37,864 bases of DNA from a virus. Below are positions 2,856 through 37,864 of the stretch, piece after piece. The stretch covers positions 1 through 37,864 of the IMG/VR virus record IMGVR_UViG_3300046499_000163; one strand, written 5' to 3'. How positions within the stretch are numbered: the first letter of the stretch is position 1; the number at the start of each line of letters is the position of its first letter. Under the pieces are notes generated by a model. It saw only the letters and a list, made by a program, of their open reading frames with translations. It made no database searches and was not told where the DNA came from. The position numbers and the translations under genes are program-made.

Positions 2856-2921
2856 GAGAATTTCCTGGTGACTGCCAGTGATGGAGAGGCCCACCGGCTA
2901 TGGCCTATTTCGGGGTGTTCC

Positions 2922-3095
2922 TTAGCGGTACATCACCAGCGGCAGCGCGCCGCCATCCGCTGCGAGATTGGCGGCGACGGTGCTGAACCACTTCGTGCCG
3001 CGCACGTCCTTGGTGTAGCGCTTGCCCGTCGCGCGGAGGTAGGTCTTGCCGATGATGATTCCGGCAATGTGCTGGGCGTTGTCTTTGAGGTTCAT
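2922..3095 (-). CDS. First gene of the leftward operon, hypothetical (57 aa)
   Basis: A 57-residue protein starting MNLKDNAQHIAGIIIGKTYL, moderately basic and ending in VMYR. The ATG at 3093-3095 has GGAG 6 bases upstream; the ATG at 3107 would remove that site. It is the first gene after PL, about 30 bases downstream of the -10 box, where lambda-type phages keep an antitermination gene. It is not obviously Arg-rich like N proteins, so that role is only a positional guess. Confidence 0.65.
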   Translation of the reverse strand: MNLKDNAQHIAGIIIGKTYLRATGKRYTKDVRGTKWFSTVAANLAADGGALPLVMYR

Positions 3096-3130
3096 CTGCG
3101 GCTCCATCGGGTTCGTGCTGCGATGGAGTT

Positions 3131-3159
3131 ACTATAGCAATGCTTTAGCTGCTATGCAA
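3131..3159 (-). promoter_or_regulatory. PL promoter of the leftward early operon
   Basis: On the minus strand a -35 box TTGCAT (3154-3159) and a -10 box TATAGT (3131-3136) are separated by exactly 17 bases. Transcription would start near 3124, upstream of the 57-residue gene. Both boxes lie within operator palindromes, so a bound repressor would block polymerase directly. Spacing and box matches equal those of PR. Confidence 0.8.
3132..3148. promoter_or_regulatory. Operator OL1 (17-bp palindrome over PL -10)
   Basis: CTATAGC-AAT-GCTTTAG, matching the consensus CTATAGC-N3-GCTATAG with one mismatch in the right arm. It covers the -10 box of PL. Its centre is 25 bp from that of OL2, which would put two dimers on nearly the same face at about 2.4 turns. 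An extra half-site pair, GCTAT-GCA-ATAGC at 3151-3163, overlaps OL2. Confidence 0.8.
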
Positions 3160-3173
3160 TAGCGCTGCTATAG
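3157..3173. promoter_or_regulatory. Operator OL2 (17-bp palindrome over PL -35)
   Basis: CAATAGC-GCT-GCTATAG, matching the consensus with one mismatch in the left arm. It overlaps the -35 box of PL. Together with OL1 and the two sites near 4.4 kb it forms a four-member set. The repressor or Cro of this phage is the obvious ligand. Confidence 0.8.
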
Positions 3174-3190
3174 TTTTTTGCTACAGGCGC

Positions 3191-3214
3191 AAAAAAGCCC
3201 GCACGAGGCGGGCT
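3191..3214 (-). terminator. Rho-independent terminator of the repressor operon
   Basis: Read leftward, AGCCCGC, a 5-base loop and GCGGGCT form a 7-bp stem (3196-3214), followed by six T (3191-3196). It lies just downstream of the lipoprotein gene and just upstream of the PL operators. It would stop repressor-operon transcripts before they enter the early left operon. Confidence 0.9.
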
Positions 3215-3241
3215 GGTCTTTAGGCGCTCAGGCGCGAAGGA

Positions 3242-3643
3242 CTAGAACTTCCAGATGCAGCGCCAGGACTCAGCCTCTTCCACCGGATGCTCAGCAAGGG
3301 CGACATCATAGGATGGCGGAGAATACTGTTTGGTCACGCACTTCAAGCCATGGACATTGAAAAGCGTATTCATGAGGACGGTCAAAAACGCGCTCCGGCT
3401 ATCGCTGTAGACGCAATCGTAAGGAGCTTTGAGGGTAGGGCTTGTCTTTACCGTATAGGCGATAGCGCTCATGCAGTCACTCCTGTCGGCGTATGGGACA
3501 AATATCCATGTCTGGTGCCCACCCTCCCGACCGGTCGCCCAGGGGTGCCAATTTAATGCATCTTCCTTGCCGCAGCCGCTGAGCATCGTGCAAATCGCTA
3601 GCGCGCTTAATCCTGCGAGCCGCAACTTCCCCCGGTTCCACAT
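3242..3643 (-). CDS. Predicted lipoprotein in the repressor operon
   Basis: A 133-residue protein with a classical lipoprotein signal: basic N-terminus (Trp-Asn-Arg-Gly-Lys), hydrophobic stretch at about residues 9-20 and lipobox Leu21-Ser-Gly-Cys24. Lipid modification at Cys24 leaves a mature chain of about 110 residues with four further cysteines, which could form two disulfides in the periplasm. Position +2 is Gly, not Asp, so outer-membrane sorting is possible. The ATG follows a GGGGAG site. It is the last gene of the repressor operon before the terminator, so it is probably made in lysogens. Phage lipoproteins made this way can exclude other phages (T5 Llp is a known case). That role is inference here and no family match is recognised. 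Confidence 0.8.
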   Translation of the reverse strand: MWNRGKLRLAGLSALAICTMLSGCGKEDALNWHPWATGREGGHQTWIFVPYADRSDCMSAIAYTVKTSPTLKAPYDCVYSDSRSAFLTVLMNTLFNVHGLKCVTKQYSPPSYDVALAEHPVEEAESWRCIWKF

Positions 3644-3906
3644 TTAATTTTCTCCCCAAGTGTCTGCAAAAGTTCGCCGGCCACCATGTAGCAGCCTAGC
3701 AACGCTCTGAATGCGTCGCTCTCCCGAAGGTCGGAGCTGCTGTAGTTAATGGCGCCGCCTGGGATGAGCTTGATCTCGATTGTCGGGGTGCGCTCAGATG
3801 CACGCCTTCTGTACTCATCGAGATTGACCACCTTTCCTTTCGTCTTTGGTGCTCTGTGAGGCACTGGAAAACCTAAATATTCGTCTTCTTCTCTCGTGGG
3901 CCTCAT
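3607..3906 (-). CDS. Hypothetical protein between repressor and lipoprotein (99 aa)
   Basis: A 99-residue protein starting MRPTREEDEYLGFPVPHRAP, with a basic segment (LDEYRRRASER, about residues 28-38) and a C-terminal helix containing FRALLGCYMVAGELLQTLGE. It ends with Cys-Gly-Thr-Gly-Gly-Ser-Cys, a possible metal or disulfide pair. It overlaps the repressor C-terminus by 92 bases in another frame and the lipoprotein start by 37 bases. The ribosome site is weak. An extension to the ATG at 3969 reads like shadow sequence. Function unknown; a repressor-operon partner is plausible. Confidence 0.6.
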   Translation of the reverse strand: MRPTREEDEYLGFPVPHRAPKTKGKVVNLDEYRRRASERTPTIEIKLIPGGAINYSSSDLRESDAFRALLGCYMVAGELLQTLGEKIKCGTGGSCGSQD

Positions 3907-4408
3907 CGTGTTTTTCAGATGAGCCCTCCAGCGCAAGTGGCTTGTCACTCGCATCCGGCATGGTGGCACTATTTTCAGGGTTTACGTTGTTTACTTTTTT
4001 TGAAGTCTGACCTGAAAAAGTTTTAAGTTGCACAAGAATTAGGCGCTTCGTTTCATCGCCCAAGTCTCGGTACATGGTAATCAGGTCGATTTCATCTGCG
4101 CTCAGCACAACCTCATCGAGAGAAATTTCAGCATCTTCCGCGCCCGGCCCCGGTTGCTCGCCCAGCATCGCAAACGCCTTCTTGGCCTCTTGCGCGAGCC
4201 GCGGGCTGATTTCCTCCAGCGGGCAGCCGAATCCCTTGGCGTATGCCTCGGCCGCGTCTAGGCTGATCGGCCGCCTTCCGGTGATGTGCTGATAAATCAT
4301 CACCTGACCACCAGGCACACCGAAGTCCCGCGCAAACTTTGCCCGGTTCTTGCCCGCAAATCGCGCGGCCAGGCGCTCGGCCTCTTCGTCTGTTGTCCAC
4401 GTATTCAT
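3815..4408 (-). CDS. Phage repressor, HTH type without a LexA/S24 domain
   Basis: A 197-residue protein. Residues about 8-70 form an XRE-like helix-turn-helix domain (AKFARDFGVPGGQVMIYQHI then GRRPISLDAAEAYAKGF), followed by a linker and an acidic helix near 97-130 (DEIDLITMYRDLGDETKRLI) that may dimerise. The C-terminal 60 residues are charged and low-complexity. No Ala-Gly cleavage site or Ser/Lys catalytic pair of a self-cleaving S24 domain is visible, so RecA-triggered autocleavage is unlikely. The gene is divergent from Cro, and its start codon lies inside an operator, which predicts autoregulation. It plays the CI role by position and domain type. The 3' end overlaps the next gene by 92 bases. 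Confidence 0.85.
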   Translation of the reverse strand: MNTWTTDEEAERLAARFAGKNRAKFARDFGVPGGQVMIYQHITGRRPISLDAAEAYAKGFGCPLEEISPRLAQEAKKAFAMLGEQPGPGAEDAEISLDEVVLSADEIDLITMYRDLGDETKRLILVQLKTFSGQTSKKVNNVNPENSATMPDASDKPLALEGSSEKHDEAHERRRRIFRFSSASQSTKDERKGGQSR

Positions 4409-4423
4409 ATAGCGATGCTATCC
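4407..4423. promoter_or_regulatory. Operator at the repressor start codon
   Basis: A perfect 5-bp palindrome around 3 bases, ATAGC-GAT-GCTAT (4409-4421), placed in the 17-bp frame ATATAGC-GAT-GCTATCC. It touches the repressor start codon (4406-4408) and covers a leftward -10-like TAGCAT (4415-4420). Binding here should shut off repressor synthesis, the arrangement expected for an autoregulatory or Cro-preferred site. Confidence 0.75.
4415..4420 (-). promoter_or_regulatory. Candidate PRM -10 box (leaderless repressor mRNA)
   Basis: On the minus strand TAGCAT matches TATAAT at four of six positions and ends 6 bases before the repressor ATG, so transcription would begin at the start codon. There is no good -35 box 16-18 bases upstream, as for lambda PRM, which needs activation. 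Lambda cI is also leaderless from PRM. Tentative. Confidence 0.4.
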
Positions 4424-4443
4424 ATTAGGAAATAAAGCATGGC

Positions 4444-4472
4444 TTGCAATCGAACTGTAGCGGCGCTATAGT
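4444..4472 (+). promoter_or_regulatory. PR promoter (cro operon)
   Basis: TTGCAA (4444-4449), 17 bases, then TATAGT (4467-4472). Transcription would start at about 4479, the first base of the cro ATG. The -10 box shares its bases with the right arm of the operator at 4455-4471. Confidence 0.85.
4455..4471. promoter_or_regulatory. Operator over PR -10
   Basis: CTGTAGC-GGC-GCTATAG, one mismatch to the CTATAGC-N3-GCTATAG consensus. It overlaps the -10 box of PR, so bound repressor would block cro transcription. It lies 48 bp centre to centre from the operator at the repressor start. Confidence 0.8.
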
Positions 4473-4478
4473 TTGGCC

Positions 4479-4766
4479 ATGGAACATACCGACCGCACCC
4501 CAATCAAGCGCGCCTGCGATGCAGTCAAAGGGCAATCCAAGCTTGCCCGTTTGATCGGCGTCAGCCCCGCGAACGTCAACCAGTGGGTTCTGGGTATTCG
4601 CCCGGTTCCCATCGAGCGGTGCGTCGCCATTGAGCGGGCGACCGGGGGGCTGGTGACTCGCAGAGACCTGCGGCCCGCCGATTGGGAATCGATCTGGCCC
4701 GAGCTGGCCGATGCGCCTCTGCGCGCGGCCGCCCTGCGCACCCAGCCCGAGCCGGCCGCGGCGTGA
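4479..4766 (+). CDS. Cro/YdaS-type DNA-binding protein
   Basis: A 95-residue protein (MEHTDRTPIKRACDAVKGQS start) with the helix-turn-helix of the YdaS/Cro group: SKLARLIGVSPANVNQWVLG at about residues 20-39, then RPVPIERCVAIERATGG. The C-terminus is rich in Ala, Pro and Arg. It is divergent from the repressor and is the first gene of PR, so it should act as Cro, competing for the same palindromes. The ATG at 4479 sits at the predicted transcription start with no ribosome site, so the message appears leaderless; an in-frame TTG at 4473 falls just after the -10 box and is unlikely. Family assignment is strong, exact ligand inferred. Confidence 0.85.
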   Translation: MEHTDRTPIKRACDAVKGQSKLARLIGVSPANVNQWVLGIRPVPIERCVAIERATGGLVTRRDLRPADWESIWPELADAPLRAAALRTQPEPAAA

Positions 4767-4777
4767 GGAGACGAGAG

Positions 4778-5059
4778 ATGACAACAATCCGCAAGGTTAT
4801 TCGCGCACTGCCGCAGTACGACGACTCCATCCTTGAAAGGCTGGAGCGCGCGATAGCGGCAGAGCGCGGTCGGCGGTCGGCGCTTAAGCGAAGCCCACCG
4901 AAAGCGGTTCCGGCGAATCCAGCAGGCACGCAACTAACCCCGCTGGGATCGCAATCGAATGCGCTCCAGGTGCGGGGCTTTTTTCTTCCACCGCAAGTTC
5001 CAGTCGCAGAAAGCCGTACGTGGTGTCCTCGACTTTCTGGCAGCGGAGTAGGGCAGTAG
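4778..5059 (+). CDS. Hypothetical early protein (93 aa)
   Basis: Begins 11 bases after the cro stop with GAGGAG upstream of the ATG, so translation from here is well supported. The first 45 residues (MTTIRKVIRALPQYDDSILE and a charged helix) look like a real protein. The remainder, rich in Pro, Gly and Ser, looks less so and overlaps the convergent gene 4884-5177. A weak terminator hairpin falls at 4963-4984 inside the frame. It might encode a small CII-position protein, but no helix-turn-helix is recognised. Confidence 0.5.
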   Translation: MTTIRKVIRALPQYDDSILERLERAIAAERGRRSALKRSPPKAVPANPAGTQLTPLGSQSNALQVRGFFLPPQVPVAESRTWCPRLSGSGVGQ

Positions 5060-32893: not shown

Positions 32894-33192
32894 TGGGGGC
32901 TCACGGGGGGCATTCGGGCCGCGCGGAAGGGCTAGAGCAATAGGCTGCCACGCGCCCCCACCATTCCCCCATAAGCTTCGCAAGCTCATGATTTATAGAT
33001 GGAATCGTTGCCCCTCCCTCGCACCACGATGCATTATCCCGCACTTCTCACTTCCTCCCAAAAATCCCCGCAAATGCTTTGCCAGTAAGGCTTTGCGGGC
33101 GATTTCGCAAACGGGAACTATCCCGCAAGACCACACAAGAAATCACATATAATCGGCGCTCCGCCCCCAAAAATCCCCCACGGAGCCCCCAC
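32894..33192. other. Non-coding region with candidate attP upstream of integrase
   Basis: This 299-base gap has no plausible gene. It contains paired repeats expected of an integrase site. CCCAAAAATCCCC occurs at 33057-33069 and 33166-33178. TATCCCGCA occurs at 33035-33043 and 33119-33127, 84 bases apart (8 helical turns). GCAAA/TTTGC half-sites form two inverted pairs, GCAAA-TGC-TTTGC (33070-33082) and TTTGCG-N8-CGCAAA (33092-33111). The latter resembles core sites around an 8-base overlap. No tRNA 3' end is recognisable. Confidence 0.5.
33148..33153 (+). promoter_or_regulatory. Integrase promoter -10 box
   Basis: Perfect TATAAT, 39 bases before the integrase ATG. There is no good -35 match 16-18 bases upstream, so it may need an activator or be weak. 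Confidence 0.5.
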
Positions 33193-34197
33193 ATGGCGTC
33201 ATTCCAGAAGTCCACGAAAGGCTGGCGCGTGCAGATCGATGTGCGCGGGCAGCGCGAGAGCCGCACCTTCCCGAACAAGGCGCTGGCCATCGAATGGGCG
33301 GACCGGAGGCAGGCTGAGCTGCGATCTATCGGGTCGGGCCAGGGGAGCAAGACGCACACGGTGGGGGACGTGCTGGACGACTACCAGAAGAAGGTCAGTC
33401 CGGCGAAGCGCGGGGCGCGCTGGGAGATCCTCCGACTGGAACTGATCGGTAAACGGAAGGTGGCCGGCATCCAATTCCGGGACATCCGGCTGGCCGACCT
33501 GCAGCCGACCCATATCGCCGCTTGGCGCGACGTGCGCGCGCGGGAGGTGTCGGGGGCCTCGGTCTCCCGAGAGATGTCCCTGCTCTCTCACGCGCTGGAG
33601 GTGGCCCGCAAGGAATGGGGCTGGCTGGTGCACGACCCCATGAAGGATGTGCGCCGACCTCCGGATAACCCTGCACGCGACCGGCTGATCGCGCCGACCG
33701 AGATCGAGGAAATCACTGCGGCCCTGGGGTACCAGGAGGACCAGCCGGTGGCCCTGCCGTCGCAGCGGGTGGCCGTGGCATTCCTGCTAGCCATCGAGAC
33801 GGCAATGCGGTCGGGGGAGATCTTGGGCCTGACATCGCGCACAGTCGATATGGACGCGCGTGTGGCGCATTTGCCGCTGACGAAGAATGGAGGCTCCCGG
33901 GATGTGCCGCTAACCCGGCGCGCGGTCGATCTGCTGAAGAAGCTGCCGGCGGTCAATGCTGGAGATCCCCTATTTGCGCTGTCGCCGGCGAGCCGGGATG
34001 CGCTGTTCCGCAAAGCCAGGGACAAAGCCGGGGTCACCGACCTGACATTCCACGACACACGGCATGAGGCGATCACCCGCCTCGCGAAGAAGCTCAACGT
34101 ACTGGACCTCTCGCGCATGACGGGGCATACCAACTTGAACGAGTTGAGAACTTATTTCAACGAGACCGCGGCTGAGATCGCCAAGCGGCTCGACTAG
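33193..34197 (+). CDS. int: Tyrosine integrase
   Basis: A 334-residue site-specific recombinase. The N-terminal part (about 1-60, FQKSTKGWRVQIDVRGQRES) is an arm-binding domain, followed by a SAM-like core-binding domain to about 160. Catalytic residues are Arg206 (MRSGEIL), Lys231 (LTKNGG), His287 and Arg290 (HDTRH), His312 (TGH) and the nucleophile Tyr321. All are present, so the enzyme should be active. The ATG has GGAG 7 bases upstream. It is transcribed with the late genes' polarity but from its own upstream region, and converges with the excisionase candidate. Confidence 0.95.
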   Translation: MASFQKSTKGWRVQIDVRGQRESRTFPNKALAIEWADRRQAELRSIGSGQGSKTHTVGDVLDDYQKKVSPAKRGARWEILRLELIGKRKVAGIQFRDIRLADLQPTHIAAWRDVRAREVSGASVSREMSLLSHALEVARKEWGWLVHDPMKDVRRPPDNPARDRLIAPTEIEEITAALGYQEDQPVALPSQRVAVAFLLAIETAMRSGEILGLTSRTVDMDARVAHLPLTKNGGSRDVPLTRRAVDLLKKLPAVNAGDPLFALSPASRDALFRKARDKAGVTDLTFHDTRHEAITRLAKKLNVLDLSRMTGHTNLNELRTYFNETAAEIAKRLD

Positions 34198-37517: not shown

Positions 37518-37864
37518 TCAGGCTGGTTGTGCGAGGTTGTAGTAATCGGCAATAGCCGCATCCACCGCAGCGAGATCATTCTCGATGTGGTCGGATTCGA
37601 AGAGGCCAAGCGGCGATTTCACCGTGTCCTGGCCGTTGTTCTTGGTGCTGAAGGTGTATTCGCCATTGGTCACGCCAGTGCGCAGCACGATGGTGACAAG
37701 GCCCTCCATGACGATCTTTTCATCCAGTAGCTTGCCAATGGTCTTGATCTTCGTCTTGCCGAAGTCATCGGTGCTGGTATGGCTGAGGATATAGACGCGC
37801 TTGTGGTCTGGTAGCGCGCTCGCGGCCATCAGCACATCCCATGCATGGCGGGCGATTTCGTTGT
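37518..37864 (-). CDS. Sak4-like ATPase, C-terminal part (continues into 443..1)
   Basis: C-terminal residues of the ATPase begun at 443. Bases 37738-37864 repeat 1-127, so only 37518-37737 are new. The sequence includes VYILSHTSTDDFGKTKIKTI, a sensor-like strand, and ends YYNLAQPA before the stop at 37518. An apparent start at 37835 is an internal Met, not the real start. Confidence 0.85.
   Translation of the reverse strand, partial: NEIARHAWDVLMAASALPDHKRVYILSHTSTDDFGKTKIKTIGKLLDEKIVMEGLVTIVLRTGVTNGEYTFSTKNNGQDTVKSPLGLFESDHIENDLAAVDAAIADYYNLAQPA
37738..37864. repeat. Direct terminal repeat, right copy (contig overlap)
   Basis: Exact copy of 1-127; see the left copy. For a circular map, remove one copy. 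Confidence 0.95.

Follow-up and report, generated by a model that had tools for sequence, protein, structure and literature searches.

The window analysed here, the whole viral stretch of 37,864 nucleotides (IMG/VR record IMGVR_UViG_3300046499_000163), carries an exact 127-bp terminal direct repeat (1-127 and 37738-37864) and is therefore probably complete and circular, with a genome length of 37,737 bp. The divergent genes of a CI-type repressor (197 aa, 3815-4408, minus strand) and a Cro-type protein (95 aa, 4479-4766, plus strand) flank a promoter/operator region. O-like and P-like replication genes are located downstream of cro, the leftward arm encodes SSB and Gam-like proteins, and the integrase gene lies at 33079-34197. 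This arrangement is the standard lambdoid order. A long ORF at 8138-9889 matches Lar-like restriction-alleviation proteins at its N terminus (phrog_599), followed by a long remainder without a match.

The repressor possesses a lambda-repressor-like helix-turn-helix (HTH) head at residues 1-81, with the recognition helix at about residues 34-43. Its structure model shows a helical HTH fold that is confident over residues 1-80 and poor beyond residue 81, and the best PDB matches of the head are the lambda repressor heads 1LMB and 1LLI (TM about 0.7 by target). A domain search found no S24 peptidase domain in CI, and an S24-like motif is also absent from the 3 kb left of OR. The 3′ part of the cI frame overlaps the next leftward ORF (3607-3969) in another frame, so that it is uncertain where CI truly ends or where the next gene begins. 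Cro belongs to the YdaS/P22-Cro family (PF15943, E=1.3e-21; phrog_35) and matches the phage Cro structures 8C7K and 8CO2.

Five putative 17-bp operators are arranged around this gene pair. On the left, OL1 (3132-3148, CTATAGCAATGCTTTAG) covers the -10 box of PL, and OL2 (3157-3173, CAATAGCGCTGCTATAG) overlaps its -35 box; the two are 25 bp apart, as they are in relatives. On the right, OR3 (4407-4423, centre 4415, ATATAGCGATGCTATCC) overlaps the repressor ATG (4408-4406, minus strand) and holds the probable -10 box of PRM, TAGCAT (4420-4415), whereas OR1 (4455-4471, centre 4463, CTGTAGCGGCGCTATAG) covers the -10 box of PR. Between them lies the half-degenerate OR2 (4432-4448, centre 4440, ATAAAGCATGGCTTGCA), at distances of 25 bp to OR3 and 23 bp to OR1. 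The core of OR2, AAGC-N3-GCTT, is palindromic and its outer arms are not: the left arm is degenerate (ATAAAGC), and the right arm contains the -35 box of PR and deviates from the palindrome there (TTG in most relatives). Its counterparts are better formed in the Acidovorax phage AP1 (GTTTAGCATGGCTTGCG) and in the IMG/VR contigs L112 and L161 (CTATAGCATGGCTTGCG). Because relatives have this better copy at the same place, we take the layout as three OR and two OL sites; a third OL site was looked for and not found. The preliminary description had placed four sites exactly where we find OL1, OL2, OR3 and OR1, and had missed OR2, so its four-site set becomes one of five. Its four sites do exist, but they are imperfect rather than true palindromes, with arm complementarity at 6, 6, 5 and 6 of 7 pairs (sites at 3132, 3157, 4407 and 4455) and 1, 1, 3 and 1 mismatches to the consensus, respectively.

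In a matrix scan covering the whole genome, these four sites rank first to fourth at 25.6, 24.4, 23.1 and 20.6 bits. The next match, at 12.1 bits, is more than 8 bits lower, and each of the four, when held out of the matrix, is still the best unseen window. No equally good matches exist elsewhere, and the operator reading of the preliminary description thus withstands the scan. At three or fewer mismatches to the consensus, five matches are found against 0.53 expected, a number reached in 0 of 100 shuffles. The fifth of these, at 4466, overlaps OR1 and is no separate site.

Both lytic promoters have the boxes and the 17-bp spacers that had been described for them. PR (4444-4472, plus strand) consists of a -35 box TTGCAA (4444-4449) and a -10 box TATAGT (4467-4472), and PL (3131-3159, minus strand) of TTGCAT (3159-3154) and TATAGT (3136-3131). 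The two -35 boxes are moderate, and PR is the only sigma-70-like promoter match within 2900-4800. As previously claimed, the -10 boxes are embedded in operators, with five of the six bases inside the site in both cases; the claim was incomplete in that the -35 boxes overlap operators too, that of PL the site at 3157-3173 and that of PR the overlooked OR2. The same overlap of PL with its operators is seen in relatives that have the OL pair.

The PR -10 box ends 6 nt ahead of the cro ATG, so that the cro mRNA is probably leaderless. In relatives the cro ATG follows the PR -10 box by 5-8 nt, mostly 6-7, with one exception among the placeable copies. On the other side, the cI ATG overlaps an OR3 arm in nearly all copies, and 24 of 25 non-redundant copies have TAGCAT exactly 6 nt ahead of this ATG. 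The two OR3 spacer bases completing the box are conserved (A in 24/25, T in 25/25), whereas those of OR1 are not. Since both distances point the same way, the conserved promoter geometry suggests that the cI and cro mRNAs are leaderless. A -35 box of PRM was searched for and not found. In lambda, OR2 is located at -42 from the cI start, and CI bound there activates PRM. Here the centre of OR2 is at about -32 from the cI ATG and no -35-like box is present, which makes activation of PRM from OR2 as in lambda doubtful.

Leftward of cI, a terminator-like hairpin (3196-3214, minus strand), recognised by consensus match only, would end the repressor transcript ahead of OL. A separate inverted repeat, CTCCATCG-N11-CGATGGAG on the minus strand at 3102-3128, directly follows the PL -10 box and overlaps the Shine-Dalgarno sequence of the first PL gene. 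Comparable hairpins with different letters occur in several relatives; where PL transcription starts decides whether the RNA contains the entire stem.

The same array recurs in other phages and prophages. Among 239 IMG/VR stretches retrieved by one single operator site, a second TAGCN3GCTA lies exactly 48 bp away in 21 and at 25 bp in eight, with only single cases at 24, 26, 32, 47 and 49 bp. The complete array, with spacings of 25 and 23 bp for OR3-OR2-OR1 and of 25 bp for the OL pair, is present in dozens of viral contigs. The OR3-OR1 pair pattern matches 37 stretches of viral origin and 19 bacterial genomes. Of these genomes, 17 are from Burkholderiales; the other two (Flavobacteriia L331 and Butyrivibrio L338) have no recognisable cI/cro pair alongside and are probably chance matches. 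Further spacing peaks at 11 and 22 bp represent a different array type and were set aside. The palindrome appears in such 11-bp-period arrays in L143, L106, L095, L142, L140, L127, L084, L083, L071, L107 and L102, several of which have two arrays some 700-900 bp apart, clearly another system than the operators spaced at 25 and 48 bp.

A protein search of bacterial genomes, for which only the first 75 residues of CI served as query and the operator was not used, recovered relatives of the repressor head in 21 of 268 genomes of one family (E<=1e-8) and 15 of 393 of another. Among the 27 fetched loci with a repressor of at least 60% identity, 24 have two TAGC-N3-GCTA sites exactly 48 bp apart, the first at the cI start codon, and 23 of these 24 have a middle TAGC-N3-GCT 25 bp along; the 24 loci are mostly near relatives from Achromobacter and do not represent 24 independent events. 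The class is patchy and not universal, as an order-wide sample gave one hit in 399 genomes (E<=1e-10), the reference genome itself. Three loci (L376, L378 and L377) keep the repressor head and have an altered operator array or one without OR1, and are possibly decaying prophages or cases of diverged specificity. Single-sequence searches with full-length CI were unsuccessful in both contig collections, in which operator patterns and the Cro protein worked. A DNA search of named phages with the region returned nothing relevant, and AP1 alone has the repressor head among 50,697 named phage records at the sensitivity used. The phage described here has both features of the TAGC-N3-GCTA class of AP1 and Burkholderiales, that is, the CI head and the 48-bp pair that begins at the cI start codon. 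The operator sequence, which the preliminary description had considered possibly private to this phage, is therefore shared, being present in many Burkholderiales prophages and, as a close variant, in AP1.

Within this class the operator letters follow the repressor. The CI heads of relatives are up to 77% identical, and the recognition helix GGQxMIYQHITGRRPI is nearly fixed in their alignment. Tyrosine at residue 39 pairs with TATAGC or TGTAGC operators in 36 of 36 cases. The serine-type helix GGxSMLSQH (AP1, L308, L312 and L313) pairs with TTTAGC in four of four, against none of the 36 of the tyrosine type, a small serine-type sample in an association that partly reflects shared ancestry; two more distant serine-type repressors (L311 and L329) do not fully match the rule. 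OR3 remains ATATAGC even in serine-type loci, as expected from its overlap with the cI start codon. The covariation at residue 39 links CI to the operator sites.

These observations make it very probable that the region is the immunity region of a temperate lambda-like phage, in which the CI-type and Cro-type proteins compete for OL1, OL2, OR3, OR2 and OR1. Repressor bound at OR1/OR2 and OL1/OL2 would occlude the -10 and -35 boxes at both PR and PL, silencing lytic transcription, while occupancy of OR3, with the cI start codon and the probable PRM -10 box, would turn cI off and commit the phage to lysis. We infer that CI and Cro bind here, in what order the sites are filled and where transcription begins. 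The earlier proposal of a lambdoid OL/OR set that fixes the immunity specificity and controls PL, PR and the repressor start has strong comparative support in the conserved spacing, the homologues defined by protein and the covariation of the recognition helix.

The sites might instead serve mainly the Cro/YdaS-type protein alone, with the repressor binding elsewhere or by other contacts. Cro is indeed the better-recognised member of a DNA-binding family at this locus, and the CI and Cro homologues have a similar YQ..xxGRRP segment, so either could read the sequence. We nevertheless regard this as improbable, because the operator letters follow residue 39 of CI, homologues defined by the CI head alone have the sites, and no cro gene adjoins the OL sites. 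Moreover, the footprints of repressor and Cro overlap in the related switch formed by PaaR2 and YdaS (PMC8630535). A function as replication iterons or partition sites is less probable still: although an unrelated group of viral contigs contains the same palindrome in arrays with a period of 11 bp, the sites described here overlap promoters and the cI start codon, are spaced at 23-25 bp, form no 11-bp array, and co-occur with cI and cro. Least credible is an origin by chance. TAGCN3GCTA does arise randomly (mean 0.2 per simulated genome, maximum 3), but chance would not account for a spacing kept across different prophages together with the top ranking genome-wide. The competition of CI and Cro for five operators remains the preferred reading, and the locus is very probably a lambdoid immunity switch of the ordinary type, belonging to a specificity class that is widespread.

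Members of this class differ in the C-terminal part of the repressor. An S24 domain is present in the relatives L112, L276 and AP1, whereas nine complete CIs of the set are without it. An approximately unbiased (AU) test, from which L311 and L329 (both with a GRSM motif) were left out, rejects the CIs lacking S24 as one clade (p=0.0025, on an alignment of only 82 columns); with so short an alignment and a weakly resolved tree, the number of S24 losses is uncertain. Tentatively, and at somewhat less than an even chance, a single operator specificity may be common to repressors with and without S24, the domain having been lost or swapped more than once. If so, prophages of the class could be cross-immune yet answer different induction signals. 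Our analysis names an apparently unstudied immunity class running through prophages of Burkholderiales (Achromobacter, Acidovorax, Burkholderia and related bacteria), and offers a rule, open to testing, that predicts mutual immunity among them, as well as naturally occurring repressor pairs that read DNA with similar heads and differ in having or lacking an SOS-responsive domain. The breadth of the class, the protein-DNA covariation and the mixture of repressors with and without S24 are points of moderate interest.

With lambda, the locus shares the logic of OL/OR, the divergent cI and cro genes, the three OR sites and the fold of the repressor head. It differs in that two OL sites were found where lambda has three, in the lack of S24, and in the position of the array, which is shifted towards the cI start by about one helical turn. 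The immB regions of N15 and phiKO2 contain three OR and two OL sites, as here, and the cI and cro mRNAs of PY54 are leaderless (PMC4488713); these three are linear plasmid prophages with another operator sequence. RacR/YdaS of the E. coli Rac prophage resembles our system in its YdaS-family Cro and short repressor (158 aa in the RacR record). Its intergenic region contains three palindromic repeats, and three RacR-DNA complexes were observed by EMSA (PMC5700373). The Rac operator is GCCTAA/TTAGGC as opposed to the TATAGC type, and BLASTP detects no similarity between RacR and CI. PaaR2/YdaS of CP-933P (E. coli O157:H7) also has a YdaS-type Cro; the paaR2 start codon is the transcript start, giving a leaderless mRNA (RACE), and some of its inverted repeats are without the left half-site (PMC8630535). 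CP-933P differs in its consensus GTTTAGTAA, its four equally spaced repeats and the toxin-antitoxin genes in the repressor operon.

Much closer is AP1 (OM049504), whose CI head is 44% identical over 98 aa and whose Cro is 56% identical. Its OR3 (ATATAGCGATGCTATTT) is nearly identical, and its spacing of OR (25/23 bp) and OL (25 bp) is the same, whereas its operators are mostly of the TTTAGC type, its helix reads LSQH in place of IYQH, and its repressor carries S24. Uncharacterised prophages of Achromobacter, Duganella, Burkholderia, Malikia and others (GTDB genomes) share the operator core and the 48-bp array. The closest of them have repressor heads about 65-71% identical, the copies in Malikia are further removed, at about 36% identity, and, unlike the present phage, most have S24-bearing repressors of 236-364 aa. 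No operator of this sequence is described in the open-access literature searched. As the kind itself is described in lambda, N15, Rac and CP-933P, the phage is a new representative of a known kind of switch, in a sequence class that is apparently unstudied.
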